Part shown: positions 1 to 33,305 of the stretch, piece after piece
How positions within the stretch are numbered: the stretch's first letter is position 1
Layout of the letters: every line of letters begins with the position of its first letter
Origin: Selaginella tamariscina
Taxonomy: Eukaryota > Streptophyta > Lycopodiopsida > Selaginellales > Selaginellaceae
Length of the DNA stretch: 64,000 nucleotides
NCBI GenBank assembly: GCA_003024785.1
Contig: PUQB01000516.1
Location: 99,501 to 163,500, forward strand
Direction of reading: 5' to 3'
Translations under genes and position numbers: made by a program
Notes under the pieces: generated by a model
Seen by the model: the letters and a program-made list of their open reading frames with translations, nothing else
Databases searched by the model: none
What the model was told of the DNA's origin: nothing

Positions 1-124
1 TCCTCACACACACGACAATAAATGCAGCTTCACTGTCTTCAAAGCTGCTGCCTCGAATTAAAAAGTAAATGATTCTCCTCTCTCTCACTCACTCACTCAC
101 TCTCTCTCTCACTCTCTCTCTCAC

Positions 125-161
<37 letters not shown>

Positions 162-660
162 GTTTATTACTTATATATACAAGTCTTACCGTGGTCCTTG
201 CCAAAACTTTTGAATTCCAAGAGGGTCTGACAGCTGAAAGCAGGTTGCAAACCGAAATACAACCTACACATTATTCAAATAAGCTCATATATATAAGACC
301 ATTGTCTCTCTCTATACATATAGAGAGAGAATGGTTGAGGAAGAGGTTGATATTATTTGCATGTACAATATATAATCAAGCCTTTAATTAACAGGCATTC
401 AAAGCGTTCAAAGCGTTGCGTATGTATATATGTGTGTTAGTATATTCAAGGCACACACACACGCACCTGCTGAACATAAAATCAAGCCGTTGGATGAGAC
501 GGAGGATATTATTACGTTTAAGAATGGTTTGTCACTGACTGTTAATCTAGGCCAACGTGGAGCACCGTCCTTCATATTGCATATCTCCACCGTATTACAC
601 TCCTGCCCTGTCCGTATGTACCATCGTCCATGTCTACCATCTCTTTCCACCTGTTATTTA
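1..660 (-). pseudogene. F-box-type gene copy 1 (partial, runs off window)
   Basis: On the minus strand this stretch matches exons of the copy at 31,560-32,240. Exon-like pieces lie at about 485-650 (encoding SDKPFLNVIISSVSSNGL), 185-250 and 1-60. The pattern 'SNGLILCSAG ... SVCNPLIKQCFQLSD' seen across the copies resembles the associated domain of plant F-box/kelch proteins, where the chain reaches 'NGL..C....VCNP.T..W..LP'. No F-box motif itself is in view. The product, if any, would be a substrate receptor of an SCF ubiquitin ligase; this is inferred from the family only. The copy is incomplete, and a spacer of microsatellite DNA (61-160) separates two exon pieces. Confidence 0.4.
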
Positions 661-1395
661 TTACATTATAACATGCCTGTGTATAATCATATAATTATCG
701 TATATGAAGGGGAGTTAACAGCTTTTGTGACACTTAAGTTGGATAACTTTATAAATAAGGGTTTTCAAGTATATTGAGATGCTTGTCGAATGATATTACC
801 ATGAGAGAATCCTTTTCAAGTTTAATGAGGTTATAGGAGATCATCACAATAATCCCTATAAATACAGCTACAATAAAGGGTGGTTTCTCTCAACAAAATC
901 TCATTAAAACAGCTCATAAGTTCAACATGCATGTTCACACTTTAGATTTATTATATTGCACAGTCCAAATAATGAAACAGAGATTGACTAGAATAAGGTT
1001 TTAGGAGTTAACACAAGTAGATTTAAGCTATGGAGGTATGTCAATTTCCAAGAGTATAAATCCCTCTCAACACATCCCATAACGTCGAGTACTTGCAGCC
1101 ATATACGGTAGCACCAAGAAACCAATATAAGGATATGCCGATCGATAAGTTGGAGAGAGCATGTATATATGCAAGTGTATGTCTGCATGTGACTTGCAAT
1201 TAGGATTGTTGTGTCAAAGAGGGGGGGGGGGGGGTATTAACAAAAGACGTATATATGTGTATTAACTTTGTGTGACTGTCTATGAGAGAGAGAGAGTGTG
1301 TGTGGGGGGGGGGCTGACATGTGACAGCGTAAAGCTATAAGAGTGTGTGGCTGTGCATTAATGTGTGTATGTGTGTGCTCGTGGCACGCGCGCGC

Positions 1396-1428
<33 letters not shown>

Positions 1429-1929
1429 TGTGAGTGTGTGTTGTTTGTGGCCGTGAGAACGAGAGAGAGCATTTTAATGAATGGTTCATCTGTGTGTATG
1501 TGTGTGCGCGTTTTATATACACGGTTAAAAGAGGACGAACTTCATGCCTATATGACGGGGTTAGGGTTTAGGGCACCTTACACGTAGAGGTCAACATAGT
1601 CAACTCCAATTTGAATTGTTTAAATTTTGTGCAGCTCATTTGTGAGGGGGCAAGACAACATGTGAAAAAACACTAGACGCAATCGGGTAAGATCGGATGA
1701 ATAATTCCCTTAAAATCTTGCACAACTGAATTGTGGGTTGCTTGATTTCAGATTGAATTTTATCTCTAAAGTAGGGAGCAGCGATCCAGCAAAGATTGCA
1801 CCTCTTGGGTATTCCCTTTCCAGAATTTCACTCACACTTTCGTAATGGGTGTTTTTTTTATTATAGATCAAAATTCATCTCGACAGCAGCAGGGGACGGT
1901 TCAGGCCGACAGGAACATGGATACCGAGG

Positions 1930-2462
1930 CTCCGTAGTGTCTGAGGCATGCTGTAGAACACATTTCTTGCAAAGCTTAAGTTCTCCTCATTTATACAAGA
2001 ACACAGGAGTGTTGTCCACGACACAATGTCCGCTCAGGCATATCTACAAATGTTTCGTAAGCATCCTTGCTTATGGCGAGGTTGGCATTCCAGGTAACAA
2101 GGGTCTCGTTGTTGAGTAAGTTTGAGCAGTAAATTGGCATCCTCCACATGACCAGAGACAAGGAAAGCATGGAGCATCGCATTCCAGGAAAAGACATTCT
2201 GCTCTACCATTTCTCCAAAGAGATTTAGCGCTTTATCCAACTGTCCGTTCCAGGCATTTAATGTAATCATGGCTGTCGACACCTGAGTGCTGACAGAACC
2301 ATTGCATTGTATATCTCCCCACATTGGACATAACCTTACAGAATGGTATTCCAGGAAACGGGATCTTGTTTGTACAGTCCATGTGAACATGGAACATATG
2401 TAAACATCTAACACGATGTGTGCACGTTTGCTACCACAAACGCACGCCCACGCACGCAACAT
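1930..2462 (-). pseudogene. PPR protein fragment, left arm
   Basis: On the minus strand the translation contains pentatricopeptide repeats: AMITLNAWNGQLDKALNLF, MVEQNVFSWNAMLHAFLVSG, VTWNANLAISKDAYETF and MPERDIVSWTTLLC-like stretches. PPR proteins bind organellar RNA one base per repeat and guide editing, splicing or stability. Only about four repeats remain, with no start and no C-terminal E/DYW domain, and the frame shifts near 2,110. The partner at 30,432-30,982 is equally short, so the fragment was broken before the arms were duplicated, or both decayed alike. Confidence 0.65.
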
Positions 2463-3059
2463 CGATTTTGTCCCTTAAATAAGTTGTCCTACCTAGGGTT
2501 TGTGAGATGCCTCTTGAATTAGCCGCTGTTTCAATCCCTTCTTCTTTTATAATTCAGTAAGTACATTTAATTGTGTATTTCTTGTATCTATCTCATTCGG
2601 TTTTCTACTTTTCTGTATATCACATCAGTCAGGGGATGTGGTTATTGCCGCTCCAACGAATAGTCCCAGTAACATTGATACACGTCACCTTAAGGTTTAG
2701 GTTTGCTCACAACGCTTTTCTCCCTTTTTAAACTCTGTTAGTTCTGTGTTTTGCATCTTTTCCTTGTTCTCTCTCACTTGTGTGTTTTTGTTTCTTTGCA
2801 TTAGATCTTTTTCTTGTTTTCCCCGATTGTTGTTCAACATGAAATTGATAGCGTTGTTAATTAAGCTGTATTAATCTCCTTGAGTTAGATTTCCATCACA
2901 GTGTACTTCAGTTCAACCTTTGTGAAGACCTTAGATTTCTTCTTGTGTGTGAGTATTTGCATGTTCTCATTTCGTTGTATATAATGTAAAGTAAGTGTCA
3001 CCTTGATCTACGATCCATCGTCTCTTATGTTTTGAAGGGACTCTCACGTTTAGGGTGAA

Positions 3060-3560
3060 TTGGCTGTACTAGGTGTTTCAACTGCCGAATTAATGATCAA
3101 GACGTCTCCATATGATAATGGCACCAAGGTAACACTATATTAATATGGAGAGAATTACTCACTGCTTGACAAGGGCTGGAATAAATTTCTTCATCACAAC
3201 ATTGTGGAAGCTGGAAATACCATTGTCTTTAGAGATGTTGGTGAGATGGGCTTCCCAAAAGTGAGAAAGCTATCTGCAGGTACCATATGATATTTAACTA
3301 TGTATGTAGTGTATGTTATTATATATATCCATAGATATTAACATGCTATTTTCTCTATCACGTTCCACGCCTATATATAACTTTACACGCACAAGACCCT
3401 CAATTCATGCCTTGAAGTGTCTGAGTTTGCATTGTAATACTTACGCATATGTTTTCTTACTATTCCAGATGTCAAATGTCGATGCTTTTGAGGGAATGAA
3501 AGTGGATATAACAATTGCAAATAAAATGATATGCAATACAAATGCTATCATCAGCAATAT
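3060..3560 (+). pseudogene. B3-domain-like gene fragment, left arm
   Basis: Three exon-like pieces lie on the plus strand: about 3,060-3,129 (ends GGCACCAAG before GTAACA; encodes STAELMIKTSPYDNGTK), 3,150-3,282 (encodes LLDKGWNKFLHHNIVEAG and NTIVFRDVGEMG, ends before GTACC) and about 3,469-3,545 (after CAG, encodes MSNVDAFEGMKVDITIANK). The block 'GW..F...N....G..IVF' is the core of the plant B3 DNA-binding fold found in ARF, REM and ABI3 proteins. No other domain is visible. The start and both flanks are missing. An in-frame stop follows the first donor if it is read through, but it would be removed by splicing. Confidence 0.45.
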
Positions 3561-3882
3561 GTAAGTACAAATTCTGCTAATTTATATAACATGTACACAC
3601 ACATTACTATATCATCTAGAATCACATATCTATGTCATTCTGTTGTACATAGCCTAGAGTGTAATTCTTTTAATGTTAAGAGTATGATACATAATTTGTA
3701 TTGTTCAATAGTTTTTCCCTTATTAATGTGTAGTATTATTATAAATTGTGATTATTAATGTTGGAAATAGATTACCTCTTCAAAATGTTCCTGGATTAAG
3801 TAACAATTCATGACTAAGAAGAAAAATTTTAAAAGGCAAGAGTGGGTATTACAAGGAACCTCGTTAATTATGATATACACCA

Positions 3883-3981
3883 AGTAAGATTGCATTAATT
3901 GTACACAAGGTTTTAAGAGTGAGAACACATCACTCTTTAAATCTTGTGCACGATCTAATACAGCCTTGTTTGATGTGCAGC
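3883..3981. repeat. Imperfect hairpin, possible small MITE
   Basis: The sequence folds back on itself: GTTTTAAGAGTGA at 3,910 pairs with TCACTCTTTAAAT at 3,931, and ACACCAAGTAAG-like outer bases pair less well. In the other arm the same site (29,012-29,059) has lost the middle and is now a 20-bp perfect hairpin. Confidence 0.5.
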
Positions 3982-4959
3982 ATTGTTAGTAGCGTTCTTT
4001 GCAATACACATTTTTATTTTGAAAATTTTGGTGACAACTCTTCTTACTTATGGAATAACTATCTAAGCAAATAGCATTTGGATTGAATATTTCATTATTT
4101 TCAGCACCAAGAATCATAATTTGTAATAATATTACATATTAATAAAAAAATTAATGAATAATATAAATTATGTGTCCATACATACATTTAACATAACAAG
4201 AATTACACTTTAAGCTATGTATAATAGAACGGCATATGTAATTCTAGGTGATATAATGACATGTTGTTGAACCTCACTTTTTCATGGACTCTATTGTTCA
4301 GTAAGTATACACACACATGCATGTGTGATTTGTATAATTTGGCATTCTAAACTGCTACAGCTTTACAACTTTATTTATTAAGTTTTAAAATTAAATAATG
4401 GTTTTATATTATATATGTATATTATACATACCAATTTAGGAAACTACACCATAATTACCCTTAACTTTTTCAACCTACAAACCCGACTCAGCCGACCTAG
4501 GTTGCGAACAGTTTCAAAAAATTTAAAAAAATTTCCGACTTAGGTGGAAGCTTCAAAAATAAAAGATAAGGAAATGTAAAAAAAATAAATTAACATAATT
4601 TCAAAAAAAAATAAAATTAACTCATATCATTAAAAAAAAAAAAAAACTAATAGTTTAACTTAGGCTCAACCACTCGTTCTTCTATGTTTCTTCATCATCC
4701 TCCTCTTTATATTCTTCTCCTGCTTGAGGAGTAATATATCTATTTAGATACACCTTTACCTTTGGGAAATTGTATTTACTTTTTTACATGTTCCCATGCT
4801 CAATCATCCTTCATAATGGTTTGAATGCACAAAAATCCTTAAATCCTACTTAAACCACTATTTTTTCTTTGCCCCAATGGTTTCTTTAAGTTTTTTTTAG
4901 GGCATTTCTTTAATTTTAAACAACCATCTACCTACCACCATGAACTACACAAATATGTA

Positions 4960-6010
4960 TTTTATTAAAGTCAATATATTAAGCATATATTTATACCACA
5001 GTTACTTAAACATATATGTGTGTTTGTGTGTGTGTTATATGTGTGTTATGATTTACTATAATCATGTGTTTCTTTTTTATAATAAACAAAAGTGTCTATA
5101 GCTCCACCACCTTCTCTTTATGCGATATTGACTTTATATATATATAATATATATATATATAATGTAATATATATATGATATGTGTGCGTGTGTGTGATAT
5201 ATCCAATGTAATAATGTGTGTGTGTGTGTGTGTGATATTTATAATGTGTTATGTGTACAACAACGGCTCCTTCCGGATTTAAATTTGTCAAATGAGGTAG
5301 TTTTTGTATTTTGCAACTTTTATATTGTTTTTTATTTTTTAATTAATATATATATGTAATTTATTTTACATTATTTACCTTTAACATTTTAATTAATAGG
5401 CTGTAACTACAGTTTTATACAAAGACCATATACGATCTTACGATTGCTTATACGTATATATGTTTGTGTGTGTGTGTTGATTTATATGTGTTTCTTTTTT
5501 TTAAATTAATCAACAGGCAGAAACACCTACAATTCTAACGCTACCTTTTTTCTTATAGTATTAACCTTATATACATATATAATAAAATGTAACATTTATA
5601 TAACGTGTGTGTATATATAATGTAATAATATATGTTTGTGATATTTATAATGTGTTATGTGTATAGCAATGGCTCCTTCCCGATTTGAATTGCCACATGA
5701 GGTACTTTTTGTATTTTATAACTTTTATATTGTTTTTCATTTTTTAAATTACAATATATATATAATTGATTCTACGTTGTTTACCTTTAACATTTTCGTT
5801 AATAGGCTGTAACTATAGTTCTATGCAGAGACTGTATATGATCTCTTGGTTACTTATACATATATATGTGTTTGTGAGTGTGTGTGTTATGATTATTAGC
5901 CCTTCTTTTCATATATTATAATCATTTGTTTTTTTATATGCCGGCGGTGGCGGCTCCAGCTCAATTGCCACCACTTCCTCCTCAAGTTTTAACCCCATGT
6001 ATATATATAT
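4960..6010 (+). repeat. Degenerate tandem array of exon-like units
   Basis: Roughly 300-450 bp units recur. Each has a TG microsatellite, a TTTCTTTTTT tract, a block like CGGCTCCTTCCGGATTT ending TGAGGTAGTTTTTG, a TTTACCTTTAACATTTT tract and a block beginning AGGCTGTAACTACAG. The blocks look like small exons bordered by AG and GT, but no long frame joins them. Partner sequence is at about 27,600-28,560 (inverted), and a third copy is at 35,590-36,140. Confidence 0.55.
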
Positions 6011-6645
6011 ATATAATATAATGCAACATATATATGATATATGTGTGTATGTGTGTGTATATATGTATGATATATATAATGTAACATATGTGTTAGATTT
6101 CTACGTTATTTACCTTTAACAGGCTGGACTTTTTGTTGGACTTACCAATATGCATGTATAAATAATTTACATTATATATTTTAACTTACTTCAAAACATT
6201 GGACTTACATTAATATGTTAATTTCAAATTACATTTTTTCAGCTTCAACCTAGAGGACCTCGATATGCGTTTTCATTTGCATCACTTCCAATACACAGTT
6301 TCCATGTAAGTTCTTTACACTAGAATATAATTAAGGGTCGTTTCGCACCACACTTAGCAGTCAAACCCTTAAGCATAACCTTCATTAATGCAGCCGGAAA
6401 TATATAATTACTATGCCGGAAATATGTAATAAATAAAATTAAGGGACGCTAAGGGAGGGGGAGGGGTCACTTAGCGTCCCTTAACTTACCGTCCGGCATT
6501 ATTTATTACATATTTCCGGCTGCATTAATTAAGGCCATGCTTAAGGGTTTGACTGTTAAGTGTGGTGCGAAACGACCCTTAGACACTAACTTTAGTTTCT
6601 TACAGGCTTTACCGCCCCAAGCTACGCCTTTACTGGTACATGTAC
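5941..6645 (+). pseudogene. Possible proline-rich multi-exon gene fragment
   Basis: Three exon-like pieces lie in a row: 5,941-5,996 (VAAPAQLPPLPPQVLTP), 6,241-6,306 (LQPRGPRYAFSFASLPIHSF, then GTAAGT) and 6,606-6,640 (after ACAG, ALPPQATPLL, then GTAC). The Harbinger-like MITE at 6,334-6,578 sits in the intron between the last two. In the right arm (27,230-27,640, minus strand) the pieces are damaged. I do not recognise the family, and the call rests only on splice-like borders and coding-like composition. Confidence 0.2.
6334..6578. mobile_element. PIF/Harbinger-type (Tourist-like) MITE
   Basis: This 245-bp element has ends GGGTCGTTTCGCACCA and its inverse, and its arms pair over most of their length. 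It is flanked by TTA at 6,331-6,333 and 6,579-6,581. A 3-bp TTA/TAA target duplication is the hallmark of PIF/Harbinger transposition. The equivalent place in the right arm (about 27,277-27,290) is an empty site with a single TTA, so the element landed after the palindrome formed. Confidence 0.85.
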
Positions 6646-6678
6646 ACATCACATATATGTACATCGAATATATATAAT

Positions 6679-6906
6679 GTTGTAATTAAAATAGGAATAA
6701 TACATCAAAATGAGAATATAAATTTTTTTTTAATTAATACTTATGTATTTGTTATTAATATTTTAAATATACATTTTAAAGAATTTCTTTTTAAACATAT
6801 ATTATTTTAAAAATTATTTCTTTATATTACAAAATGCTAATTAAATAATTAAAATTATTAATTATTAAGAAAATGAGATTATAGACATTTCTATTTTAAT
6901 TACAAC
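6679..6906. mobile_element. AT-rich MITE, left arm only
   Basis: The element begins GTTGTAATTAAAATAGGAAT and ends ATTTCTATTTTAATTACAAC, its near-exact inverse. The matching place in the right arm (near 27,190) lacks it. A diverged relative lies at about 34,365-34,610. The target duplication is hidden in flanking AT repeats. Confidence 0.65.
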
Positions 6907-6910
6907 GTCC

Positions 6911-6942
<32 letters not shown>

Positions 6943-7476
6943 TTAATGTGTGCATGTATGTTCTTTTACCTATCAATCCTACGTAGGCAAATGAGCTATT
7001 AGTAAAGGGACAAAGAGTGGTGCTTAGAGTACATTAATAATCGTAATAATATCGAATAAAACTACTACATACCAAATACAAAATAATATTAATTGTGTAT
7101 ATAAGTAATGTATATACTAAATTTTTATATTTGTATATGTTATACATGTAATACATTGTTATACTGTAATTTAAAGTAATACTCAATATATTATAAGCTT
7201 TTTCAATTATATTAGTGATATAATTAAGTTAAGATTATTTAAGTTTTTTATTTTCATTTTTTATTTATTACAGCACTTTTCTACCCAACTTATAAAAAGA
7301 ATATACTGGTTCACCACATATAGTTGCTATGTACAATTTACTTCACTAAGACTGTTGCTTGGCCCTTTATTATATGCAACATCTCAAATAAATCCAGCAA
7401 ATTTGGTAAATTTAAATAATACATTATTGAATATGTATTTCATTTGTATATCGTTGCCTACCTGTACATATATGTA

Positions 7477-7527
7477 CAGTATACACTAGACTTTAAAGTA
7501 AATATATGTTGTGTGTATACATATATA

Positions 7528-7561
<34 letters not shown>

Positions 7562-10384
7562 CGTATAGGATGAGACACATTTGATACACACATAGACATG
7601 AGTGAGGAAACAAAAAAAAAAGAATCAAGGAAAAAAAAGTAATTGGAAATCGAAAAGTTTGTGTGTATGTGTTTATAGAAAATATGCATACATATTGAGG
7701 ATATATTTAAATTATAAAGCAAAATAATAATGCAATAATATAAATTAACTTGTATTAATTTATGTAAAGTATTTCTAAGTTTGTTATCATTGTTGAAAAA
7801 GGCATTCTTTAAATAAAGAATATCACAAATATTTTATCTCAACTTCTTTAAAATCTTCTACAACTTAATGAGAAATTATCAAGGCTTGACAATAAGATAT
7901 TTAATGATCCTCATGTGTAAGTTTTAATATATTTTATTTTATATTAAAAATTCAACATCCACTTATAATTATTTAATTTATTTCATAATTATTAAATTAA
8001 AATTTTAAAGATAAGTTTAAATCAATATATTTTAAACTTAATTTTATAAACCATAAAGTTATATTTTTTAATATACTAACCATTTTATATTAATATCAAG
8101 TTTTTATTCACAAGAGATCAAACATAACATTAACTTCGAACGATTTTTATTATTTACTACCTATGTAATGACTAAATAATCAAGTGTGTTTATTTTATAT
8201 ATTTGAATGTAGCTTTCTTCACACATACTTTTAAGGTTTATAATTATATATTATATATAGTAAATACTCATTTATATATATTAATAATCATTTGTTTATT
8301 TATGATTTTTTAAAATAAATACTTAACATTTATTTATATTTGTAAAAACTCTAGACAATCATTTCTTCAATTTTTTTTCTTCAAAAAGATATTATATTTA
8401 TATACTTCATCTTTTCTTTAGTTTTTTTAAGATAAGAAAAAATATAATTATATATAAGTTTAAAATTGAATGATCCGTCTAAAACATACTTTTTTTTAAT
8501 ACGATAAAGTAAGCTTCTATATACACATGCATATATATATAATTATATGCATATATGTTTCAAAATGAGTGTATACATATATTAATAATTTTAATAAGTC
8601 TTTATATTTATTCATAAGGCATATAATCATTGGTGTTTAACACATTAATATAAAATAAATAATAATATAATATATTAATTTTTTATATGAAGATGATAAA
8701 GATGTATTAAATATCTTGATATATATATGTTTTATACGTATTATAATATAATACACATGTATATTATATAAACTTAAAAATTTATATACATATTATTTTA
8801 TATGTATGTGCGTGTGTATGTAGGTACAATATATAAAAATAAAGCTCATAACAAATTAAATAAAGAATAAAACATGTTTGTGTAACAAAGAAAATATTAA
8901 AAAAATATTTTTAAACAAAAAAATAAATATTTATATATTCTTAAAATATATATTATTAATACTATGTGTGTGTACATATTTGCATGTGTTTATGTTAAAT
9001 ATAAACAAGAATGCATAAGAAAAACACACACACATAACATTGATAATATATATTTCAAAAATATATAAATACTTCTTTTTTTAAAAAAAAATATTCTTTA
9101 AACATTTTCTTTATTACACAAACACGTTTCACTTTTGATTCAATTTGTCATGTACTTCATTTTTCATATATTATACCTACACACATGCATATACATATAA
9201 GATAATATGTATATAAATTTTTAAATTTATATAATATACATATACATTATATTATAATACATACCAAATAACATATATATATATTAAAATATTTAATACA
9301 TCTTCATCATTTTTATATAAAAATTTAAGATATTATATTATCATTTGTTTCATATTAAGATGTATTAAACACCATTAGTTATGCCCCTTGTGAATGGGCA
9401 CAAAGACTTATTAAAATTATTAATATATATACATACTCATTTTAAAACATATATATAAAAACTTACTTTAACATATTCAAAAAGAATATATTTTAAATGA
9501 ATTATTCAATTTTAAACCTACACATAATTATACTTTTTTTTTAAAGAAAAGATCTTTATAATGAAACAAAAATGTTATAAGAAATACAATACCTTTTAAA
9601 GAAGAAAGTGTTGACGAAATGACATTGTACAAGGACTTGTTCAAAAAAATCATAAACAAACAAATAATTATTAATATATATAAATGAGTATTTATTATAT
9701 ATAATGTATAACCATAAATCCTAAGTGTGTGTGTGAAAAAAACTAAATTCATATATGTAGAATAAACACACCTGATTATTTAGCCATTACCTTAAGTAAT
9801 AAATAACAGAAATTATTTGAAGTGAATGTTATGTTCGATCCCTCCTTAATAAACTTGTTATTAATATAAAATGGTTAGTAAATTAAAAATTTAATTTTAT
9901 AATTTATATAATTAAATTTAAAATATGCTAATTTAAATTTAACTTAATATGCTAATTTAAATTTAACTTAATTTAATAATTATAAGTGAATTTAATATAA
10001 AATAAAATATATTAAACTTACACATAAAAATCATTAAAGATCTCATCGTTGAACCTTTGATAATTCCTTGTTAAGTTACAGAAAATTTTAAAAAAATTAA
10101 AATAAAGTATTTATAACATTCTTTAAAAAATAACTCTCTTAACAATAGCAGCAAACCTAAGAATACTCTACATAAATTAATATAAATTAACTTATAATAT
10201 TGCATAATTATTTTGCTTTATAATTTACATATCCTCAGTATGTATGCATATCTTCTCTAAACACACACACACACACACACACACACTCATGTATATGTTT
10301 GTATCAAATGCGTCTCATCCTGTACGGCACATCAATATACGTATGCACACAACATATATGTACTTTAAAGTCTAGTGTATACTG
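7477..10384. mobile_element. Large foldback element (nested palindrome), left arm
   Basis: The ends read CAGTATACACTAGACTTTAA (7,477 on) and its inverse (to 10,384), each bordered by TA. The two halves are inverted copies of each other along their whole length. For example GGATGAGACACATTTGATAC at 7,568 faces its inverse near 10,300, and the axis lies close to 9,000. No transposase frame is visible. A CAG start with TA target suggests a Tc1/mariner-derived foldback element. It separates the F-box copy at 10,397 from the tandem array. Confidence 0.7.
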
Positions 10385-10396
10385 TATATATATAAG

Positions 10397-11960
10397 TATT
10401 ATCTCCTTTGGTAGCATACTCAAATACTCCCACTGCATTGCAATTAATATATCCATTTAATTAAATTCACATTGTATATTAATATGTTAATATTAATGTA
10501 AACAATATAAAAATAATAACATATAAATAACATTGCATATTAATATGTTAACTTGCATTTCATTTACACATGCATTAGTACTTACCAAGTAAACACTGAC
10601 ACATGCATTAGTACTTACCAAGTAAACGTTGACAAAATCATATACATATATCCACATAAACCTCCAAATTCCAATAGAATAATATTAAAATATAAATTTT
10701 ATAATTATATATTCTATAAGAGCTGCCTTGTAGATAATAAATTTCAGAATAAATAACTTGTAAGAATAGTTACCTGTTTGTTCCAAACAAGCAAGCACAC
10801 TGTCCCATATTTGCCACCTAGCTTGAACGCCACCATGTTTGCCAGCAGCAGTTTACCTGCAACATTGCATAGTTCAGCACCTTATAACATACACACACAG
10901 TATTTATCATTGCACACTGCTAGCCTAGGATGGTGTCGCCCTCCCCAGGTAGATCTGGTGATGGATAATCCACATAAAACGCCGTAGATTGAGGCATCCT
11001 GTAAAACATTCACTTTAAAGATGCGCAAAACACACACATGCACACACACACGCACGCACGCACACAGACGAATACGAACTCTATAGGAAGAGATGTCCAG
11101 GTACCCAAAGTGATGGCTCGCTTGTCCTCAAATATACTTAAGTGAACGCCTTCCTGAAACTGTCATAACTCCACTGCATACATATCATATGAGCATAACA
11201 TAATTTAATAACCAAAATCTTAAGACAACCAATAAAAGCTTCATATTCTTCAACCTCTGCAATGTATATAGTTAGTACATACATATGTGCACATACCTAT
11301 ATCACAGCTCCACGACCATTTTCCTTCCCTAGAGTCGTATGCTTGTAACACTGTTCCCCAGCTTCCCATGTGCTTGAAGAACGTCCTCAACAATAAATGC
11401 AGCTTCACTGTCTTCAAAGCTGCTGCCTAGAATTAAAAAGTAAATGATCCCCCCCTTCTCTCTCACAGAATTTATTACTTATATATACAAGTCTTACCGT
11501 GGTCCTTGCTCAAACTTTGAATTCCCAAGGGCACAAAATAGGCTCTATCTTGAGGGTCTGACAGCTGAAGGCATTGCTTAATCAGCGGGTTGCAAACCGA
11601 AATACAACCTACACATTATTCAAATAAGCTCATATATATAAGACCGTTGTCTCTCTCTATACATATAAAGAGAATGGTTGAGAGAGAGGTTGATATTATT
11701 TGCATGTACAATATATAATCAAGCCTTTAATTAACAGGCATTCAAAGCGTTGCGTATGTATATATGTGTGTTAGTATATTCAAGGCACACACACACACAC
11801 CTGCTGAACATAAAATCAAGCCGTTGGATGGAGGATATTACGTTTAAGAATGGTTTGTCACTGACTGTTAATTTAGGCCAACGTTATTGCATATGTCCAC
11901 CGAGTCCTGCCCTGTCCGTATGTACCATCGTCCATGTCTACCATCTCTTTCTGTTATTTA
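10397..11960 (-). pseudogene. F-box-type gene copy 2, 3' end lost
   Basis: This minus-strand copy is the partner of 22,340-23,880. It has the same exon order as the copy ending at 33,305. It includes the YDSREGKW-type exon near 11,330-11,410 and the 'CNP' exon near 11,520-11,600. The last exon is cut after the codons for VFEYATK at about 10,400, where the TA-flanked foldback element (7,477-10,384) begins. Small indels break several frames. It is probably not functional. Confidence 0.45.
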
Positions 11961-12475: not shown

Positions 12476-12490
12476 GATAGATGTATGTTA

Positions 12491-13245: not shown

Positions 13246-13286
13246 CACTTCACTCTTATATAAACGCGTTAGCTTAAAGGCAATGT

Positions 13287-13332: not shown

Positions 13333-13334
<2 letters not shown>

Positions 13335-19468: not shown

Positions 19469-19523
<55 letters not shown>

Positions 19524-20909: not shown

Positions 20910-21128
20910 CATCCACCTCACAGAATCCCAAACCCAACAAAATTTATAATTTATAAACTATTTATAATTTATTTACATTAAATTAAAATCAAATAAAATT
21001 CATATACAGAAAATCAATATTGGATATAATTGTTTTTCGGACTTCAGACTTCTTTTAAGGACTCTGAGAGAGAGAGAGAGAGAACACATTGCCTTTAAGC
21101 TAACGCGTTTATATTAAAGAGAGAAGTG

Positions 21129-21593: not shown

Positions 21594-21829
21594 CTGCCAA
21601 TAGCAAAGGGAAACAGAAAGTGCGTTATGTAAAGTATTTACACATATAAAAATGTATGTGTACACACACACAAGTATCTATACGTATACATGTTATAATA
21701 TATGTATCCTTCGTGCGCAATATAATGTATAAAAACTTTCTTTTATATACGTAAAATGTATAATATATATATACACACAATACAAAAAGATATGATATAA
21801 CATATACAGACGTGCATAACATACATCTA

Positions 21830-21870
21830 AAACGTTGGATGGTGGTCGCGGTTCAAATCCCTTTGTGAGT
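21830..21870 (+). mobile_element. tRNA-derived SINE-like sequence, right arm
   Basis: GGTTCAAATCC at 21,850-21,860 is a B box match, preceded by GGATGGTGGTCGC. It is the mirror of the minus-strand copy at 12,435-12,475. The upstream half differs from the left arm. Confidence 0.4.
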
Positions 21871-22339
21871 TATTTCTTCTTAGAGTAGCGTAGCTGATTG
21901 GGGTTGTTGTTTTTAGGGTAGAACAGATTTGTAAATACTCCATCAAATTGGAAGATATAATCCGGTATTTGTTTCATATTTATTAATATCTTTTATATCA
22001 TAAATTATTCATTTATTATTATTATTATTATATTTATAATAGATTGTTCATTGGTTACATATTTACAAATGGGACTAAAAGAAGATCAAAATCACGGATT
22101 AATGGTTCCATTTGCAAACAACCTCCGTTGGATTCTTTTATTTGGGCTTCTCTACCTGTCGACCTTCACAAGTAAGTCATTTGTATGCACGACCCGTCAT
22201 GGTTAACGTTAAAACTCAGTTTAATTAATATTAAACTAGATTAAATATGGAATATACTGTTATAACATAGAGGTAATACGGTATATACGATACCCTCTCT
22301 CTCTATATATATCATATATATGATTATACACATAGGCAT

Positions 22340-23880
22340 GTTATAATGTAATAAATAACAGATGGTAGACATGGACGATGGTACATACGGACAGGGCAGG
22401 ACTCGGTGGACATATGCAATATGAAGGACGTTGGCCTAAATTAACAGTCAGTGACAAACCATTCTTAAACGTAATATCCTCCATCCAACGGCTTGATTTT
22501 ATGTTCAGCAGGTGTGTGTGTGCCTTGAATATACTAACACACATATATACATACGCAACGCTTTGAATGTCTGTTAATTAAAGGCTTGATTATTATTGTA
22601 CATGCAAATAATATCAACCTCTCCCTCAACCATTCTCTTTATATGTATAGAGAGAGACAATGGTCTTATATTATGAGCTTATTTAAATAATGTGTAGGTT
22701 GGATTTCGGTTTGCAACCCGCTGATTAAGCAATGCTTTCAGCTGTCAGACCCTCAAGATAGCCTTGGGAATTCAAAGTTTGGGCAAGGACCACGGTAAGA
22801 CTTGTATATATAAGTAATAAATTCTGTGAGAGACAAGGGGGGGATCATTTACTTTTTAATTCTAGGCAGCAGCTTTGAAGACAGTGAAGCTGCATTTATT
22901 GTCGTGTGCGTGAGGACGTTCTTCAAGCACATGGGAAGCTGGGGAACAGTGTTACAAGCATACGACTCTAGGGAAGGAAAATGGTCGTGGAGCTGTGATA
23001 TAGGTATGTGCACATATGTATGTACTAACTATATACATTGCAGAGGTTGAAGAATATGAAGCTTTTATTGGTTGGCTTGATTCTTCTCTTGGAAAGTTAG
23101 TAAAGATTTGGTTATTAAATTATGTTATGCTCATATGATATGTATGCAGTGGAGTTATGACAGTTTCAGGAAGGCGTTCACTTAAGTATATTCCGGTGCT
23201 GGCTGAGGACAAGCGAGCCATCACTTTGGGTACCTGGACATCTCTTCCTATAGAGTTCGTATTCGTCGTGTGTGTGCGTGTGTGTGCATGTGTGTGTTTT
23301 GCGCATCTTTAAAGTGAATGTTTACAGGATGCCTCAATCTACGGTGTTTTATGTGGATTATCCATCACCAGATCTACCTGGGGGAGGCGACACCATCCTA
23401 GGCTAGCATTGTGCAATGGTAAATACTGTGTGTGTGTGTGTTATAAGGTGCTAAACTATGCAATGTTGCAGGTAAACTGCTGCTGGCAAACATGGTGGTG
23501 TTCAAGCCAGGTGGTAAATATGGGACAGTTGCTTGCTTGTTTGGAACAAACAGGTAACTATTCTTACAGTTATTTATATTCTGAGGCATTTATTATAATT
23601 ATAAAATTTATACTTATAGTATTATTTTATGGGAATTTGGAGGTTTATGTGGATATATGTATATGACTTTTGTAATGTTTACTTGGTAAGTACTAATGCA
23701 TGTGTAAATGAAATGCAAGTTAACATATTAATATACAATGTTAATTTATATGTTATTATTTTTATATTGTTTACATTAATAATAACATATTAATATACAA
23801 TGTGAATTTAATTAAATGGATTATTGATTGCAATGCAGTGGGAGTATTTGAGTATGCTACCAAGGAGATAATACCTATAT
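22340..23880 (+). pseudogene. F-box-type gene copy 3, 3' end lost
   Basis: This is the plus-strand mirror of copy 2. It preserves the best 'CNP' exon: near 22,700-22,790 it encodes WISVCNPLIKQCFQLSD, followed by a GT donor. The exon near 22,860-22,985 encodes SSFEDSEAAFIVV and LQAYDSREGKW. The copy ends where the foldback element starts (23,884), so the final exon present at 33,219-33,305 is missing. Identification as an F-box/kelch-associated protein rests on the 'NGLI.C.A...VCNPL' and 'YDS..GKW' patterns. Confidence 0.45.
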
Positions 23881-23883
23881 ATA

Positions 23884-26664
23884 CAGTATACACTAGACTT
23901 TAAAGTAAATATATGTGTGTGTGTATACGTATATTTATGTGCCGTACAGGATGAGACGCATTTGATACACACATATACATGAGTGTGTGTGTGTGTGTGT
24001 GTGTGTAGAGAAGATATTCATACATACTGAAGATATATATAAATTATAAAGCAAACAATTATGCAATATTATAAGTGTATTTTTAGGTTTGTTGTCATTG
24101 TTAACATAGCTATTTTTAAGTAAAGAATGTCATAAATATTTTATCTTTAATTTTTTTTAGAATTTTCCGCAATTTCGTAAGAAATTATCAAAGGTTCAAC
24201 GATGAGATCTTTAACGATACTGTAAGTTTTAATATATTTTACTTTATATTAAAATTTAACATTCACTTATAATTATTAAATTAATTTTTTAAAGTTAAAT
24301 TTAAATCAGCATTTTTTAAATTTAATTATATAAACTATAAAATTAATTTTTTTTAATTTACTAACCATTTTATATTAATAACAAGTTTATTAAGAAGGGA
24401 TCAAATATAACATTGATTTCAAGTTTGTTGGCTAAATAATCAGGTGTGTTTATTCTACATATATGAATGTAGTTTTTTTTCACAGCACACTTAGGATTTA
24501 TGATTATACATTATATATAATAATACTCATATATATATATTAATAATCATTTGTTTATTTATGATTTTTTTAACAAGTCTTTTATCTATGTTTGTTAAAA
24601 GAATAAGAATATAAAAACTCTAAAACACTTATACAATGTTATTTCATCAACACTTTTTCTTTAAAAAGGTATTGTATTTCTTATAACATTTTTGTTTCAT
24701 TATAACGAATTTTTCTTTAGTTTTTAATGATAAAAAAAGTATAATTATGTATAGGTTTAAAATTGAACGATCTATTTAAAGTATATTTATTTTGAGCATG
24801 ATAAAGTAAGTTTTTATATATATGTTTTAAAATGAGTGTGTATATATAATAATTTTAATAAGTCTTTGTGCCCATTCATAAGGGGCATAACTAGTGGTGT
24901 TTAATATATATTAATATGAAACAAATGATAATATAATATCTTAATTTTTATATGAAAATAATAAAGATGTATTAAATATTTTAATATATATATGTTATTT
25001 TGTATGTACTATAATATAATGTAATATATATATATAAATTTAAAATTTATACATATTATCCTATATATGTATATGCATGTAGGTATAATATATGAAAAAT
25101 TAAGCACATGACAAATTGAATAAAAAGTGAAATGTGTTTGTGTAATAGAGAAAATGTTTTAAAAAATATTAAAAACAATAAATAAGTATTTATATATTTT
25201 TGAAATATATATTATCAATGTTATATGTGTGTGTTTTTCTTATGCATTCTTGTTTATATTTAACATAAAACACATGCAAATATGTACACACACATAGTAT
25301 TAATAATATATATTTTAAGAATATATAAATATTCATCTTTTGTTTAAAATATTTTTTAAAACATTTTTTTTTGTTACACAAACATGTTTTATTCTTTATT
25401 TAATTTGTTATGAGCTTCATCTTTTATATATTGTATCTATGTACACACGCATGTACATATAATATAATATGTATATAAATTTTTAAATTTGTATAATATA
25501 CTTGTGTATTATATTATAATACATATAAAATAATATATATATATCAAGATATTTAATACATCTTTATTATCTTCACATAAAAAATAATATATTATATTAT
25601 TATTTATTTTATATTAAAATGTGTTAAACACCAATAATTATATGCCTTATAAATAATACAAAGACTTATTAAAATTATTAATATTATGTACACACTCATT
25701 TTGACACTATATGCATATTATTATATACATATATGCATATGTATATAAAAACTTATTTTATCATATTAAAAAAAATGTTTTAGATGGATCATTCAATTTT
25801 AAATCTATACATAATTATATTTTTTTTATCTTAAAAAAATTTTAAAAAAAGATTTTTACAATGAAGTATATAAAAAATACAATAATCTTTTAGAAATAAT
25901 TGTCCAGAGTTTTTAATTTCTTGTTCTTTAACCAAAACATAAAATAAACGTTAAGTATTTATTCAAAAAAATCATAAATAAATAAATGATTATTAATATA
26001 TATAAATGAGTATTTACTATATATAATATATAATTATAAACCTTAAAAGTAGTGAAGAAACTACATTCAAATATATAAAATAAAACACTTGATTATTTAG
26101 CCATTGCATAGGTATAAATATAAAAATGTTCGAAAGTGTTATATTTGATCTCTTGTGAATAAACTTGATATTAATATAAAATGGTTAGTATATTAAAAAA
26201 TATAACTTTATGGTTTATAATTAAGTTTAAAATATATTGATTTAAACTTATCTTTAAAATTTTAATTTAATAATTATAAGTGGATGTTGAATTTTTATTA
26301 TAAAGTAAAAATATATTAAAATTTACACATGAGGATCGTTAAAGATCTTATTGTTAAGTCTTGATAATTTCATTAAGTTATAAAAGATTTAAAGAAGTTG
26401 AGATAAAATATTTGTGATATTTTTTATTTAAAAATAACTCTTTTGAATATGATAATAAAACTTAAAATACTCTTTATAAATTAATACAATTAATTATATT
26501 ATTGCATTAATCATTTTGCTTTATAATTTATATAGATCTTCAATATGTATGCATATTTTCTCTAAACACACACACACTGTGTATCAAATGTGTCTCATCC
26601 TGTACGGCACAATATATATATGTATAACACAGCATATATTTACTTTAAAGTCTAGTGTATACTG
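23884..26664. mobile_element. Large foldback element, right arm
   Basis: Mirror partner of 7,477-10,384 with the same TA-bordered ends and an axis near 25,260. It truncates the F-box copy 3 at the same codon as in the left arm, so the insertion is older than the big palindrome. Confidence 0.7.
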
Positions 26665-29011
26665 TACATATATGTATGAGTAAGCAACGATATACAAATG
26701 AAATACATATTTAATAGTGTATATTATTTAAATTATGAAATTTACTGGGATGCTGCTTATAATAAAGGGCAAGCAACAGTTTTAGCGAAGTAAATTGTAC
26801 ATAACCATATGTGGAATTGGTGTATTTTTATCATAGGTTGAGTAGAAAAGCGCTGTAATAAATAAAAAAGTGAAAATAAAAAATTTAAATAATATTATAT
26901 CACTAATATAATTCAAAAAGCTTACAATATATTGAGTATTACTTTAAAATACAGTATAACAATGTATCACATGTATAACATATACAAGTATAAACATTTA
27001 GTATATACATTACTTATATACACAATTAATATTGTAATGTATTTGGTATGCAGTAGTTTTATTCGATACTATTATGATTATTAACGTATTCTAAGCACCA
27101 CTCTTTGCCCTTTGCTAATAGTCATTTGCATGCGTAGGATTGACCGGTAAAAGAACATACACGCACACGTTAAATATAATATATGTATAATATATTCGAT
27201 GTACATATATGTGATGTGTACATGTACCAATAACAGATTGGGGCGGTAAAGCCTGTAAGAAATTAAAGTTAATGTCTTAATTATATTCTAGTGTAAAGAA
27301 CTTACATGGAAATTGTGTATTAGAAGCGATGCAAATGGATAGGTTGAAACTGTAAAAATGTAATTTGAAATTAGCATATTAATGTAAGTCCAATGTTTTG
27401 AAGTAAGTTAAAATATATAATGCAAATTATCTATATATGCATATTGGCAGGTCCAGCAAAAAGTCCAGCCTGTTAAAGATAAACAACGTCAAAATCTAAT
27501 TATGTTACATTATATATATCATACATATATACACACACATACACACATATATCATATATATGCATTATATTATATATATATATATATACATGAAGTTAAA
27601 ACCCGAGGAGATTGAGCTGGAGCCGCCGCGACAGCTGCTGATTAATACGAAAAAAACAAATGATTATAGTATATGAAAAAAAGGGCTAATAATCATAACA
27701 CACACACACAAACACATATATATGTATAAGTAACCAAAGATCATATACATAGAACTATAGTCACAGCCTATTAATGAAAATATTAAAGGTAAACAACGTA
27801 GAATCAATTACATATGTATTGTAATTTAAAAAATGAAAAACAATATAAAAGTTGTAAAATACAAAAAATACCTCATGTGGCAATTCAAATCGGGAAAGAG
27901 CTGTTGCTATACACATAACACATTATAAATATCACAAACATATATTGTTACATTATATAACACACACACATTATATACATATTACATTTTATTATATATG
28001 TATATAAGGTCAATATTGTAAGAAGAAAAGGTAATGTTGGAGTTGTAGACGCTTTCGCCTGTTGATTTATTTTTTTAAAAAGAAACACATGTAAATCATA
28101 ACACACACAACACAAACACATATTATATACGTATAAGTAACCGTAAGATCCTATACAGTCTTTGTATAGAACTGTAGTTACAGCCTATTAATTAAAATGT
28201 TAAAGGTAATAATGTAGAATAAATTACATATATATATTAATTAAAAAAATGAAAATAATATAAAAGTTGCAAAATACCTTATGTGACAAATTTAAATCGG
28301 GAAGGAGCCGTTGCTGTACACATAACACATTATAAATATCACACACACACATATTATTACATTAGATATATCACACACACGCACACATATCATATATATA
28401 TTATATTATATTATATATGTATATAAGGTCAATATCGAATAAAGAGAAGATGGTAGAGCTATAGCACTTTTGTTTGTTGATTAATTTTTAAAAAAAGAAA
28501 CATAAGATTATCATAAATCATAACACACATATAACACACACACAAAACACATATATATGTTTAAGTAACTGTGGTATAAATATATGCTTAATATATTGGC
28601 TTTATACAATATATATATATAATATATATATACTAGTGTAATTTCCTACATTGGTATGTATATACATATATGATATAAAACCATTATTTAATTTCAAGAC
28701 TTAGCAGATAAAACTGTAGAGTTGTAGCAGTTTAAAATGCCAAATTATACAAATCACACATGCATGTGTTGTGTATACTTATTGAACAACAGAGTCCAAA
28801 AAAATGAAGTCCAACAGCATGTCATTATATCACTTAGAATTACATATGCCATTCTATTATACATAGCTTAAAGTGTAATTTTATGTTAAATTATGTATGG
28901 ACACATAATTTATATTATTCATTAGTTTATCTTATTAATATGTAGTATTATTATAAATTGTGATTCTTGGTGCTGAAATAATGAAATATTCATATATATG
29001 TGTGTGTGTGT

Positions 29012-29059
29012 ACACCAAGTAAAACTGCATTAATCGTACAATGCAGTTTTACTTGGTGT
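29012..29059. repeat. Perfect 20-bp-arm hairpin
   Basis: ACACCAAGTAAAACTGCATT at 29,012-29,031 is followed by an 8-base loop and its exact reverse complement at 29,040-29,059. It is a shortened version of the hairpin at 3,883-3,981. Confidence 0.8.
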
Positions 29060-29349
29060 GCATCGTAATTAGTGAGGTTCCTTGTAATACACACTCTTGC
29101 CTTTAAAATTTTAATGATAAATTCTTCTTACTCATGATTATTACTTAATCCAGGAACATTTTGGAAAGGTAATCCATTTCCAACATTAATAATCACAATT
29201 TATAATAATATTACACATTAATAAGGAAAAACCATTCAACAATACAAATTATGTGTCGTACTCTTAACATTAAAAGAATTACACTCTAATCTATGTACAA
29301 CAGAATAACATAGATTTGTGTTATATGCATTTGCGATTGTTATATCCAC

Positions 29350-29790
29350 TTTCATTCCCTCAAAAGCATCGACATTTAACATCTGGAATAGTAAGAAAAC
29401 ATATGCGTAAGTATTACAATGCAAACCCAGACACTTCAAAGGCATGAATTGAGGGTCTTGTGTGTGTAAAGTTATATATAGGTGTAGAACGTGATAGAGA
29501 AAATAGCATGTTAATATCTATGGATATATATAATAACATGCACTACATACATAGTTAAATATCATATGGTACCTGCGGATAGCTTTCTCACTTTTGGGAA
29601 GCCCATCTCACCAACATCTCTAAAGACAATGGTATTTCCAGCTTCCACAATGTTGTGATGAAGAAATTTATTCCAGCCCTTGTTAAGCAGTGAGTAATTC
29701 TCTCCATGTTACCTTGGTGCCATTATTATATGGAGACGTCTTGATCATTAATTCGGCAGTTGAAACACTTAGTACAGCCAATTCACGAGT
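29350..29790 (-). pseudogene. B3-domain-like gene fragment, right arm
   Basis: Mirror of 3,060-3,560 on the minus strand. The core GWNKFLHHNIVEAG and NTIVFRDVGEMGFPK is identical at residue level. Upstream of it the sequence reads ...GTKVTWRE..., closer to a normal B3 strand than the left arm, which has an extra insertion there. A one-base frame difference lies between the two parts. Non-functional as it stands. Confidence 0.45.
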
Positions 29791-30431
29791 CCCTTCAAAA
29801 CATAAGAGACGATGGATCATAGATCAAGGTGACACTTACTTTACATTATATACAACGAATGAGAACATGTAAATACTCACCACAAGAAGAAATCTAAGGT
29901 CTTCACAAAGGTTGAACTGAAGTACACTGTGATGAAAACCTAACTCAAGGAGATTAATACAGCTTAATTAACAACGCTCAATAAGACATCAATTTCAAAT
30001 TGCCCTACAATCGGGGACAACAAGAAAAAGATCTAATGCAAAGAAACAAAAACACACACAAGTGAGAGAGAACAAGGAAAAGATGCGAAGGAACAGAAAC
30101 ACAGATAACACATGCATACTAACAGAATTTAAAAAGGGAGAAAAGCGTTGTGAGCAAACCTAAACCTTTAGGTGACGTGTATCAATGTTACTGGGACTAT
30201 TCGTTGGAGCGGCACGTGGCCTGCAATAATCACATAAAATCGAACGACTCACAATCACCTGACTGATGTGATATACAGAAAAGTAGAAGATATAAGAAAT
30301 ACACATTTAAAATGTATTATAAAAGGAGGCATCCCACAAATCCTAGGTAGGACAACTTATTTAAGGGACAAAATCGATGTTGCGTGCGTGGGCGTGCGTT
30401 TATGGTAGCAAACGTGCACATATCGTGTTAG

Positions 30432-30982
30432 ATGTTTACATCTCACAACATATGTTCCACTTGTGCCATTTTGCACAATTTATATTCACATGGACTGTAC
30501 AAACAAGATCCCGTTCCTGGAATACCATTCTGTAAGGTTATGTCCAATGTGGGGAGATATACAATGCAATGGTTCTGTCAACAAGGTACCGAAACACAGC
30601 ACTCAGGTGTCGACAGCCATGATTACATTAAATGCCTGGAACGGACAGTTGGATAAGCGCTAAATCTCTTTGGAGAAATGGTAGAGCACAATGTCTTTTC
30701 CTGGAATGCGATGCTCCATGCTTTCCTTGTCTCTGGTCATGTGGAGGATGCCAATTTACTGCTCAAACTTACTCCCTTGTTACCTGGAATGCCAACCTCA
30801 TCATAAGCAAGGATGCTTACGAAACATTTGTAGATATGCCTGAGCGGGACATTGTATCGTGGACAACACTCCTGTGTTCTTGTATAAATGAGGAGAACTT
30901 AAGCTTTGCAAGAAATGTGTTCTACAGCATGCCTCAGACCAGCGAATATCGCTGTAGTAGAATCGTGCTCCAAATATATTAG
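30432..30982 (+). pseudogene. PPR protein fragment, right arm
   Basis: Mirror copy of 1,930-2,462. Translation gives STAMITLNAWNGQLDK in one frame, a shift near 30,655, then LVTWNANLIISKDAYETF, MPERDIVSWTTLLCSC and FARNVFYSMPQTSEY, which are typical PPR-motif halves. It is truncated on both sides and cannot encode a full PPR protein. Confidence 0.65.
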
Positions 30983-31559
30983 TGTAATCAAGTTTAAATT
31001 AACTAAAACAGAATTTTTAGTGAACGTCAGTTGATTATCGGATTGTCATTACAGTAATTATGGAGTAAAAAAATGACTACAAAACACTGTAGGTAGTGAA
31101 TTGCTACCACAAAAAAAATTCGCTGCCTCAGACACTACGGAGCCTCGGTATCCATGCTCCTGTCACAGAAGCCGGCCCCTGCTGCTGTCGAGATGAATTT
31201 TGATCTATATATAAAAAAAAAACAACCCATTACGAAAGTGTGAGTGAAATTTTGAATACCCAAGAGGTGCAATCTTTGCTAGCTGCTCCCTGCTTTAGAG
31301 ATAAAATCCAATCTGAAATCAAGCAACCCACAATTCAGTTGTGCAAGATTTTAACGGAATTTATTCATCCGATCTTACCCGATTGCGTCTAGTGTTTTTC
31401 TCATGTTGTCTTGCCCCCTCACAAATGAGCTGCACAAAATTTAAACAATTCAAATTGGAGTTGACTATGTTGGCCTCTACGTGTAAGTTTCAAGGACAAT
31501 GTACCACTTGGTGCCCTAAACCCTAACCCCGTCCTATTACAGTCCTGCCCTGTCCGAAT

Positions 31560-32097
31560 GTATAATGTAATAAATAACAGGTGGAAAGAGATGGTAGACA
31601 TGGACGATGGTACATACGGACAGGGCAGGACTGTAATACGGTGGAGATATGCAATATGAAGGACGGTGCTCCACGTTGGCCTAGATTAACAGTCAGTGAC
31701 AAACCATTCTTAAACGTAATAATATCCTCCGTCTCATCCAACGGCTTGATTTTATGTTCAGCAGGTGCGTTGTGTGTGCCTTGAATATACTAACACACAT
31801 ATATACATACGCAACGCTTTGAACGCTTTGAATGCCTGTTAATTAAAGGCTTGATTATATATTGTACATGCAAATAATATCAACCTTTCTCAACCATTCT
31901 CTCTATATGTATAGATAGAGAGAAACAATGGTCTTATATATATGAGCTTATTTGAATAATGTGTAGGTTGTATTTCGGTTTGCAACCTGCTTTCAGCTGT
32001 CAGACCCTCCACAAGTAACCAAAGGTAGAGCCTATTTTGTGTTCTTGGGAATTCAAAGTTTTGGCAAGGACCACGGTAAGACTTGTATATAAGTAAT

Positions 32098-32159
<62 letters not shown>

Positions 32160-33305
32160 AGGGGGATCATTTACTTTTTAATTCGAGGCAGCAGCTTTGA
32201 AGACAGTGAAGCTGCATTTATTGTCGTGTGCGTGAGGACGTTCTTCAAGCACATGGGAAGCTGGGGAACAGTGTTACAAGCATACGACTCTAGGGAAGGA
32301 AAATGGTCGGAGCTGTGATATAGGTTCGTATTGTATATTCACATATGCATGTCCTAACTATATACATATGCAGAGGTTGAAGAATATGAAGCTTTTATTG
32401 GTTGGCTTGATTCTTCTCTTGGAAAGTTAGTAAGGGTTTTGGTTATTAAATTATGTTCTGCTCATATGATATGTATGCAGTGGAGTTCTACACGACTTCA
32501 AGTTTTACTTTCCAACTATGACAGTTTCAGGAAGGCGTTCACTTAAGTATATTCCGGTGCTGGCTGAGGACAAGCGAGCCATCACTTTGGGGACCTGGAC
32601 ATCTCTTCCTATAGAGTTCGTATTCGTCTGTGTGCGTGCGTGTGCGTGTGCATGTGTGTGTTTTGCACATCTTTAAAGCAGGATGCCTCAATCTACGGTG
32701 TTTTATGTGGATTATCCATCACCAGATCTACCTGGGGGAGGACGACACCATCCTAGGCTAGCATTGTGTGCAATGGTAAATACTGTGTGTGTGTGTTATA
32801 AGGTGCTAAACTATGCAATGTTGCAGGTAAACTGCCGCTGGCAAACATGGTGGCGTTCAAGCCAGGTGGCAAATATGGGACAGTGTGCTTGCTTGTTTGG
32901 AACAAACAGGTATTTATTTTGAAATTTATTATTTACAAGGCAGCTCTTATAAAATATAATTATAAGATTTATACTTCTAGTATTATTTTATGGGAATTTG
33001 GAGGTTTATGTGGATATATGTATACATGTGTATATGACTCTTGTCAATGTTTACTTGGTAAGTACTAATGCATGTGTAAATGCAATGTTGATATGCAAGT
33101 TAACATATTATTATACAATGTTAATTTATATCTTATTTATTTTTATATTGTTTACGTTAATATTAACATATTAATATACAATGTGAATTTAATTAAATGG
33201 ATTATTGATTGCAATGCAGTGGGAGTATTTGAGTATGCTACCAAAGGAGATAATACCGAGGAAGACTGGGAGATGGTCACTCCGTCGGTCATGGTCGTTG
33301 GGTAA
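31560..33305 (+). CDS. F-box-type (kelch-associated) gene copy 4, most complete
   Basis: Best of the four copies. Exons seen are: about 31,580-31,764, in frame and encoding CNMKDGAPRWPRL then SSVSSNGLILCSA, ending at GT; 31,967-32,085, 'CISVCNL...', starting after AG; about 32,180-32,320, with LQAYDSREGKWSEL; further pieces near 32,370-32,430, 32,480-32,620, 32,680-32,770 and 32,828-32,909; and a last exon of about 33,219-33,305 encoding VGVFEYATKGDNTEEDW and a stop. Only this copy keeps the last exon. The 'CNP' exon appears damaged compared with 22,700-22,790, so the gene may be dying too. The role as an SCF substrate receptor is inferred from resemblance to F-box-associated domains; no N-terminal F-box was found. 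Confidence 0.45.
32103..32165. repeat. Compound (GT)n(GA)n(G)n microsatellite
   Basis: It lies inside an intron of F-box copy 4. The mirror position in the left arm (75-160) is a CT/CA run. Confidence 0.95.

Follow-up and report, generated by a model that had tools for sequence, protein, structure and literature searches.

A 64,000-base stretch of Selaginella tamariscina DNA (the window; contig PUQB01000516.1, here C856, positions 99,501–163,500) carries most of a palindrome of about 62 kb, P1, that runs on into the flanking sequence on its left. Very probably, P1 is a large inverted segmental duplication in the nuclear genome, formed once before two haplotypes split and then subject to patchy gene conversion and decay. 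In the scenario we propose, a single inverted duplication, perhaps created by a template-switch or break-repair event, would have formed P1 at a time before the split of the two assembled haplotypes. Its arms would then have diverged through substitutions, deletions, small insertions and partial gene decay, and arm-to-arm gene conversion would have re-homogenised patches, chiefly near the axis and at GDSL-lipase genes. P1 itself would have no dedicated function.

Structure and extent of palindrome P1

All coordinates are window positions; negative values and values above 64,000 lie in flanking sequence of C856 (179,483 bases), which belongs to an assembly of 300,702,823 bases in 1,391 contigs. 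The extent of P1 was mapped on C856 from 39.5 kb of the contig to its end, which covers 60 kb of left flank, the window and the whole right flank of 16 kb. In the self-BLAST of the window, minus-strand matches formed a colinear inverted chain of 1–16,229 versus 32,238–18,225, and the longest single mirror piece (7,661–12,996 versus 26,577–21,302) scored 6,534 bits. Global alignment of 1–16,240 with the reverse complement of 18,221–32,240 gave 12,330 matches and 905 mismatches (93.2% identity, ungapped) and 233 gap events, 86 of them of 1 base. Match length and score ruled out a chance or low-complexity origin of P1.

On C856, the mirror match spans about −16,348 to 45,371 (~62 kb in total), and its arms measure ~32.6 kb (left) and ~27.1 kb (right). 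Weaker mirror matching extends to about −16.7 kb and 45.55 kb, and ~3 kb of the left arm (−7.5 to −4.5 kb) have no counterpart at the matching place in the right arm. That is, two long inverted arms surround a short spacer, as in a large nuclear palindrome or inverted segmental duplication:

1–16,232, plus strand: left arm, inner half; on C856, the arm extends leftward beyond the window to about −16.35 kb
16,233–18,222, no strand: axis spacer of ~2 kb, unmirrored; same orientation in a second contig, C962
18,223–45,371, minus strand: right arm; its end, at ~45.4–45.6 kb, falls at a GDSL-lipase gene

An initial annotation of the window had described a palindrome of more than 30 kb with arms at 1–16,240 and 18,200–32,240. 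The palindrome is real, and within the window the arm coordinates are about right (1–16,232 and 18,223–32,238), but with the flank included it is about twice as long. The right arm does not stop at 32,240, which is simply the mirror position of window base 1. The genes in mirror order with substitutions and indels, described there as well, are borne out by the self-alignment.

The second contig and the history of the four arms

A probe from the spacer detected a 90% copy on C962, of which 120,000 of the 149,096 bases were examined. Between −15.4 and 80 kb, C962 and C856 are colinear and have the same axis, both junctions coinciding in the two contigs within ~20 bases. Their alignment across the spacer (16,249–18,198), 1,981 columns long, contains 34 mismatches and 130 gap bases. 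Between 13,630 and 19,113 they differ by 36 single-nucleotide polymorphisms (SNPs) per kb and therefore look separately assembled. The occurrence of the same junctions in two such contigs argues strongly against a mis-join, and the divergence of the two contigs makes this support against a single mis-join independent. The right flank (48.8–80 kb), aligned over 31,497 columns, shows 94 mismatches between the contigs (3.0 SNPs per kb, or 0.3%), and 141 one-base indels stand against these 94 SNPs. Given this excess, one-base frameshifts may be sequencing errors and are not readable as decay.

These data bear directly on the possibility that P1 is an assembly artefact, created by a head-to-head join of separate loci or of the two haplotypes, or by a fold-back read. 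The assembly, made with PacBio and Falcon, apparently holds both haplotypes and its one-base indel noise is high, which leaves some room for such an error. However, a fold-back read would give near-identical arms, whereas the arms of P1 differ at ~6.5% of aligned bases, and joined haplotypes would differ as the flank does, by 0.3%. Together with the common junctions, this makes an artefact quite improbable. The initial annotation had named mis-assembly as the outcome that would undo its palindrome; C962, with the same palindrome and the same axis junctions, makes that outcome unlikely.

From the alignments, C856 and C962 appear to be two haplotypes of one plant. Alternatively, they could be recent paralogous segments, that is, copies of a duplicated palindrome, which would fit a divergence reaching 46 SNPs per kb in places within P1 and a left flank that has no second copy. 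But allelic contig pairs are to be expected in an assembly twice the genome size (300.73 versus 150 Mb; PacBio, Falcon, GC 37.4%, according to a review table, PMC8558194). Moreover, the flank identity persists for 31 kb, and two further contigs, C1226 and C435, make a similar pair (54 mismatches in 5,810 columns in the pieces examined). We regard paralogy as unlikely, and treat the contigs as presumed alleles in what follows.

Left (L) and right (R) arms of both contigs were then compared at 17,303 clean aligned positions, which included 229 two-state informative sites. 200 of these 229 sites join the same arm across contigs, 23 join the arms within a contig and 6 cross. This pairing of left with left and right with right indicates that the duplication came first and the haplotypes split later. 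Over the whole alignment, left and right arms differ by 6.5% in C856 and 6.2% in C962, and between the contigs the left arms differ by 3.6% and the right arms by 3.8%.

Axis-ward of left-arm position 10,500 the pattern is another one, with 8 same-arm, 18 within-contig and 1 cross site (27 sites). Across the alignment, neighbouring sites were of the same type 209 times, versus a mean of 176 in 2,000 shuffles (sd 2.9, maximum 186). One tract stands out:

13,617–14,853, no strand: 16 consecutive within-contig sites, likely arm-to-arm conversion

In the block 14,682–15,822, all pairs of the four arms show similar distances (3.3–4.3%), the outside relative differing by 12.2–13.6%. Judged from these site patterns, the within-contig signal near the axis is likely the product of arm-to-arm gene conversion. 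Signs of such conversion are confined to patches, namely the tract of 16 sites close to the axis and, between palindromes, a GDSL-lipase pattern; the arms, at ~93–94% identity, have not been kept at ~99% or more. With the rate used for S. lepidophylla, 1.3e-8 per site per year (PMC5750206), a divergence of 3–7% would make P1 perhaps ~1–3 My old, an age that is a minimum for the converted parts owing to the conversion.

Palindrome P2, rival origins and known systems

A smaller palindrome, P2, adjoins P1 and is also found on C962. A GDSL-lipase gene is common to P2 and the ends of P1:

54,167–59,962, no strand: P2 left arm; its mirror, 72,917–67,302, lies right of the window
44,142–45,064, minus strand: GDSL lipase gene in two overlapping frames at the right-arm end of P1; mirror copy from about −16,086
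56,036–56,977, minus strand: GDSL lipase open frame in the P2 left arm, 313 amino acids

P1 and P2 together hold seven full-length GDSL copies and one more cut by the end of C962, with pairwise differences of 0.11–2.24%. The copy in the right P2 arm of C962 differs by 0.21% from a P1 copy and by 1.18% from its own allele, a similarity pattern that seems to point to exchange between the palindromes. Purifying selection on the GDSL genes was considered and is unsupported by the substitution counts. The stretch 60,807–62,712 matches the P2 mirror weakly via a direct repeat, and 58,691–59,962 and 60,961–62,354, in and beside the P2 left arm, are direct repeats of 78–79%. No domain was found in a Pfam scan of 57.9–62.9 kb in P2. 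Tentatively, P1 and P2 might be regarded as adjacent, non-sex-linked palindromes in which conversion within and between them keeps the axis patches and the GDSL family alike and the rest decays, a behaviour that may be general in this genome; we consider this broader view possible but doubtful.

Several observations weigh against a single old duplication shared by two haplotypes. All support comes from contigs of one assembly, and C962 begins within the left arm, so the outer left side of P1 is seen on C856 only. The divergence between the contigs is patchy: in seven measured stretches of P1 its lowest value is 3.6 and its highest 46 SNPs per kb (versus 3.0 in the flank). Old mosaics of haplotypes, or consensus errors within repeats, could also produce such a pattern. 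For a left-flank probe (−25 to −22 kb), the assembly yielded no close second copy, only two matches of ~650 bases each at 82–84%, and this flank may be collapsed, missing or hemizygous. In the outer block (Y), the left arm of C962 differs from the remaining three by 4.4–7.6% and groups with the outside relatives in the tree (support 0.91), which may contradict simple arm-wise descent there, unless the alignment is locally wrong around an insert in that arm. Finally, the full 313-amino-acid GDSL frame is present in one of the seven full copies (the longest open frame of the others is 163–306 amino acids), and when copies were compared with the intact frame, non-synonymous rates were above synonymous rates in four of six cases.

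The initial annotation went one step further and suggested a U/V-type or otherwise low-recombining region. A sex-linked ampliconic palindrome would indeed share its size, mirrored genes and conversion-like patches with P1, as for instance the willow W palindromes do, and on the left side, where the flank has no close second copy, hemizygosity is possible. However, a U or V region is expected to be hemizygous or strongly diverged, whereas both presumed haplotypes carry P1 and their right flanks differ by just 3.0 SNPs per kb over 31 kb. In addition, Selaginella is heterosporous and has a bisexual sporophyte (PMC8360875, as stated in its available part), and the P1 arms are well below the >99% average of the 20-kb sequence in four willow arms, other willow arms reaching 96–99%. 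The step to sex linkage is therefore unsupported, and we hold it to be very improbable.

Turning back to the inverted duplication, we looked for relatives of the arms elsewhere in the assembly with an inner probe, an outer probe and a third probe (1,939–3,522), scoring the best 40 of 589 candidates for the inner and the best 40 of 234 for the outer one. Long matches to the inner and outer probes on C1226 and C435 were all on one strand, at 69–93% by piece (gaps counted), and these relatives are ~8–14% from the arms when gaps are ignored. A long mirrored copy on C1226 or C435 was not found among these best-scored candidates, where a weak copy could be missed; the minus-strand matches were of 36–45 bases and fell in the same stretches. 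The third probe also matches C1226 and C435, and its part 2,853–3,460 matches several further contigs at ~68–78%. On C1226, one strand carries both the inner and the outer block, ~7 kb apart; in each P1 arm, by contrast, the two blocks face opposite ways, so an additional rearrangement must have occurred. A reconstruction of the ancestral block order was dropped, since order and orientation on C1226 are unlike either arm.

The same searches speak to a giant transposable element with the arms as its terminal inverted repeats, an idea that the inverted arms and the AT-rich palindromes nested in them might invite. Among the best-scored candidates, the three probes were matched near full length only at the P1 locus, on two contigs; elsewhere they gave the diverged pieces of C1226 and C435, the repeated part of the third probe and many short matches. 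The arms hold plant genes, and no transposase was detected in the parts scanned against Pfam (six-frame scans of 11.8–16.6, 29.0–33.5 and 38.2–43.2 kb, plus single frames; AT-rich parts left out). We hold a transposon of this kind to be very improbable.

Large gene-bearing palindromes are usually discussed as an answer to missing recombination on sex chromosomes. If C856 and C962 are allelic, an old 62-kb palindrome in a plant with a bisexual sporophyte would demonstrate that palindromes of this kind can form and become partly homogenised where there is no sex linkage, and P1 would be a natural case for relating conversion to distance from the axis. An autosomal plant palindrome was not found among the top-listed open-access papers on plant or Selaginella palindromes, judged by titles and abstract openings. 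The nearest likeness is with W.P1 and W.P2 of Salix purpurea (PMC7023750), described in the available part of that paper as two adjacent nuclear palindromes of tens of kb or more, with a short spacer, genes in mirror order and evidence of conversion within and between palindromes. But the Salix palindromes are female-specific, whereas P1 is in both presumed alleles, and their 20-kb four-arm sequence averages >99% identity (96–99% in another pair), compared to ~93–94% and conversion-like patches only in P1.

Palindromes of mammalian Y and X chromosomes (PMC3723533, PMC8981503, available parts) are likewise inverted duplications with arm-to-arm conversion. However, they lie on sex chromosomes and have arms of >99.9% (human Y) or >99% identity, whereas homogenisation is not seen over most of the P1 arm length. 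In Caenorhabditis, long gene-containing inverted repeats resemble P1 in their inverted pairs of homologous genes, and the available part of that study (PMC1803023) proposes a structure-keeping mechanism; the C. elegans repeats are nearly perfect, in contrast to the diverged and partly decayed P1. Within the genus, haplotype blocks of S. lepidophylla are ~98% alike, with many large indels (PMC5750206); the available part mentions no palindromes, and in the main text of that paper, which was searched for ‘inversion’ but not for ‘palindrome’, the former word occurs 0 times.

Genes and repeats in the arms

Pfam scans of the arm parts revealed a peroxidase, a weak MIF-like exon, PPR repeats, a weak B3 match, an RNase PH match near the cut-off, LEA_3a and GDSL lipase. 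Apart from the GDSL genes, the arm genes were placed as follows:

2,037–2,474, minus strand: PPR-repeat fragment, left arm
13,687–13,803, plus strand: MIF-like exon, weak (E 0.0026, below the Pfam cut-off)
14,987–15,449, plus strand: peroxidase exons (PF00141) in three frames, broken differently in the four arms
38,836–38,967, minus strand: RNase PH domain fragment, outer right arm (E 2.3e-5, just below the cut-off)
39,480–39,680, plus strand: LEA_3a (late embryogenesis abundant) domain, outer right arm

Deletions of ~9–80 bases, which differ by arm, affect both the peroxidase exons and the intervening introns, and in the peroxidase copy on C1226 the exons differ by short indels. As read from the alignment, these deletions support gene decay, the one-base shifts of this assembly not being counted. 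The decayed gene sets of the initial annotation are thus upheld as far as the arm-specific peroxidase deletions go, but not where decay would be read from one-base frameshifts. The mirror of the PPR fragment, at ~30,696–30,934 on the plus strand, gives weak PPR matches under the cut-off. LEA proteins are important in desiccation tolerance. When the assembly was searched for LEA_3a in six frames, six matches were listed, of which C1226 and C435 account for four; among the four arms, the right arm of C856 alone was listed.

Repeats and insertions within the arms comprise the nested palindromes, a repeated unit (unit U) and a foldback:

7,657–10,276, no strand: nested, very AT-rich palindrome, left arm, smaller and more diverged than P1; 76% self-complementary
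23,871–26,677, no strand: its mirror copy in the right arm, likewise more diverged than P1; 74%
1–705, minus strand: unit U, outer copy, left arm; runs on to about −1,075
10,396–12,008, minus strand: unit U, inner copy, left arm
22,307–23,875, plus strand: unit U, inner copy, right arm
31,561–33,338, plus strand: unit U, outer copy, right arm; no Pfam match inside
6,334–6,580, no strand: foldback (MITE-like) insertion of 247 bases, private to the left arm of C856

The foldback occurs in one of the four arms: an empty site is visible in the left arm of C962 and the right arm of C856, and the insertion is missing from the right arm of C962 in the alignment. Its target duplication resembles TTA(A), the two sides differing by one base, and no superfamily was assigned to it. 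Other private inserts, of 138–194 columns, are found in the right arm of C856 and the left arm of C962. The initial annotation was correct in reporting private insertions.

Unit U measures 1.6–1.8 kb and is present as two direct copies per arm, which amounts to 8 strong copies over two arms and two contigs. Diverged relatives occur on other contigs (47 matches, pieces counted). On C442, such relatives form an inverted pair at 218,303–219,283 (minus) and 242,607–243,479 (plus), and C960 has another at 628,975–630,053 (minus) and 695,727–697,145 (plus). These pairs are a lead toward further palindromes.

The window has a GC content of 32.6% (base counts); scans of it with Rfam (gathering threshold) and for tRNA genes found none. 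Just beyond the right end of P1, at 45,846–47,084, lies a long open frame of PPR repeats (413 amino acids). Further right, the frame 52,751–53,110 matches the sperm-tail domain NYD-SP28_assoc (E 2.4e-7), which fits a plant with swimming sperm.

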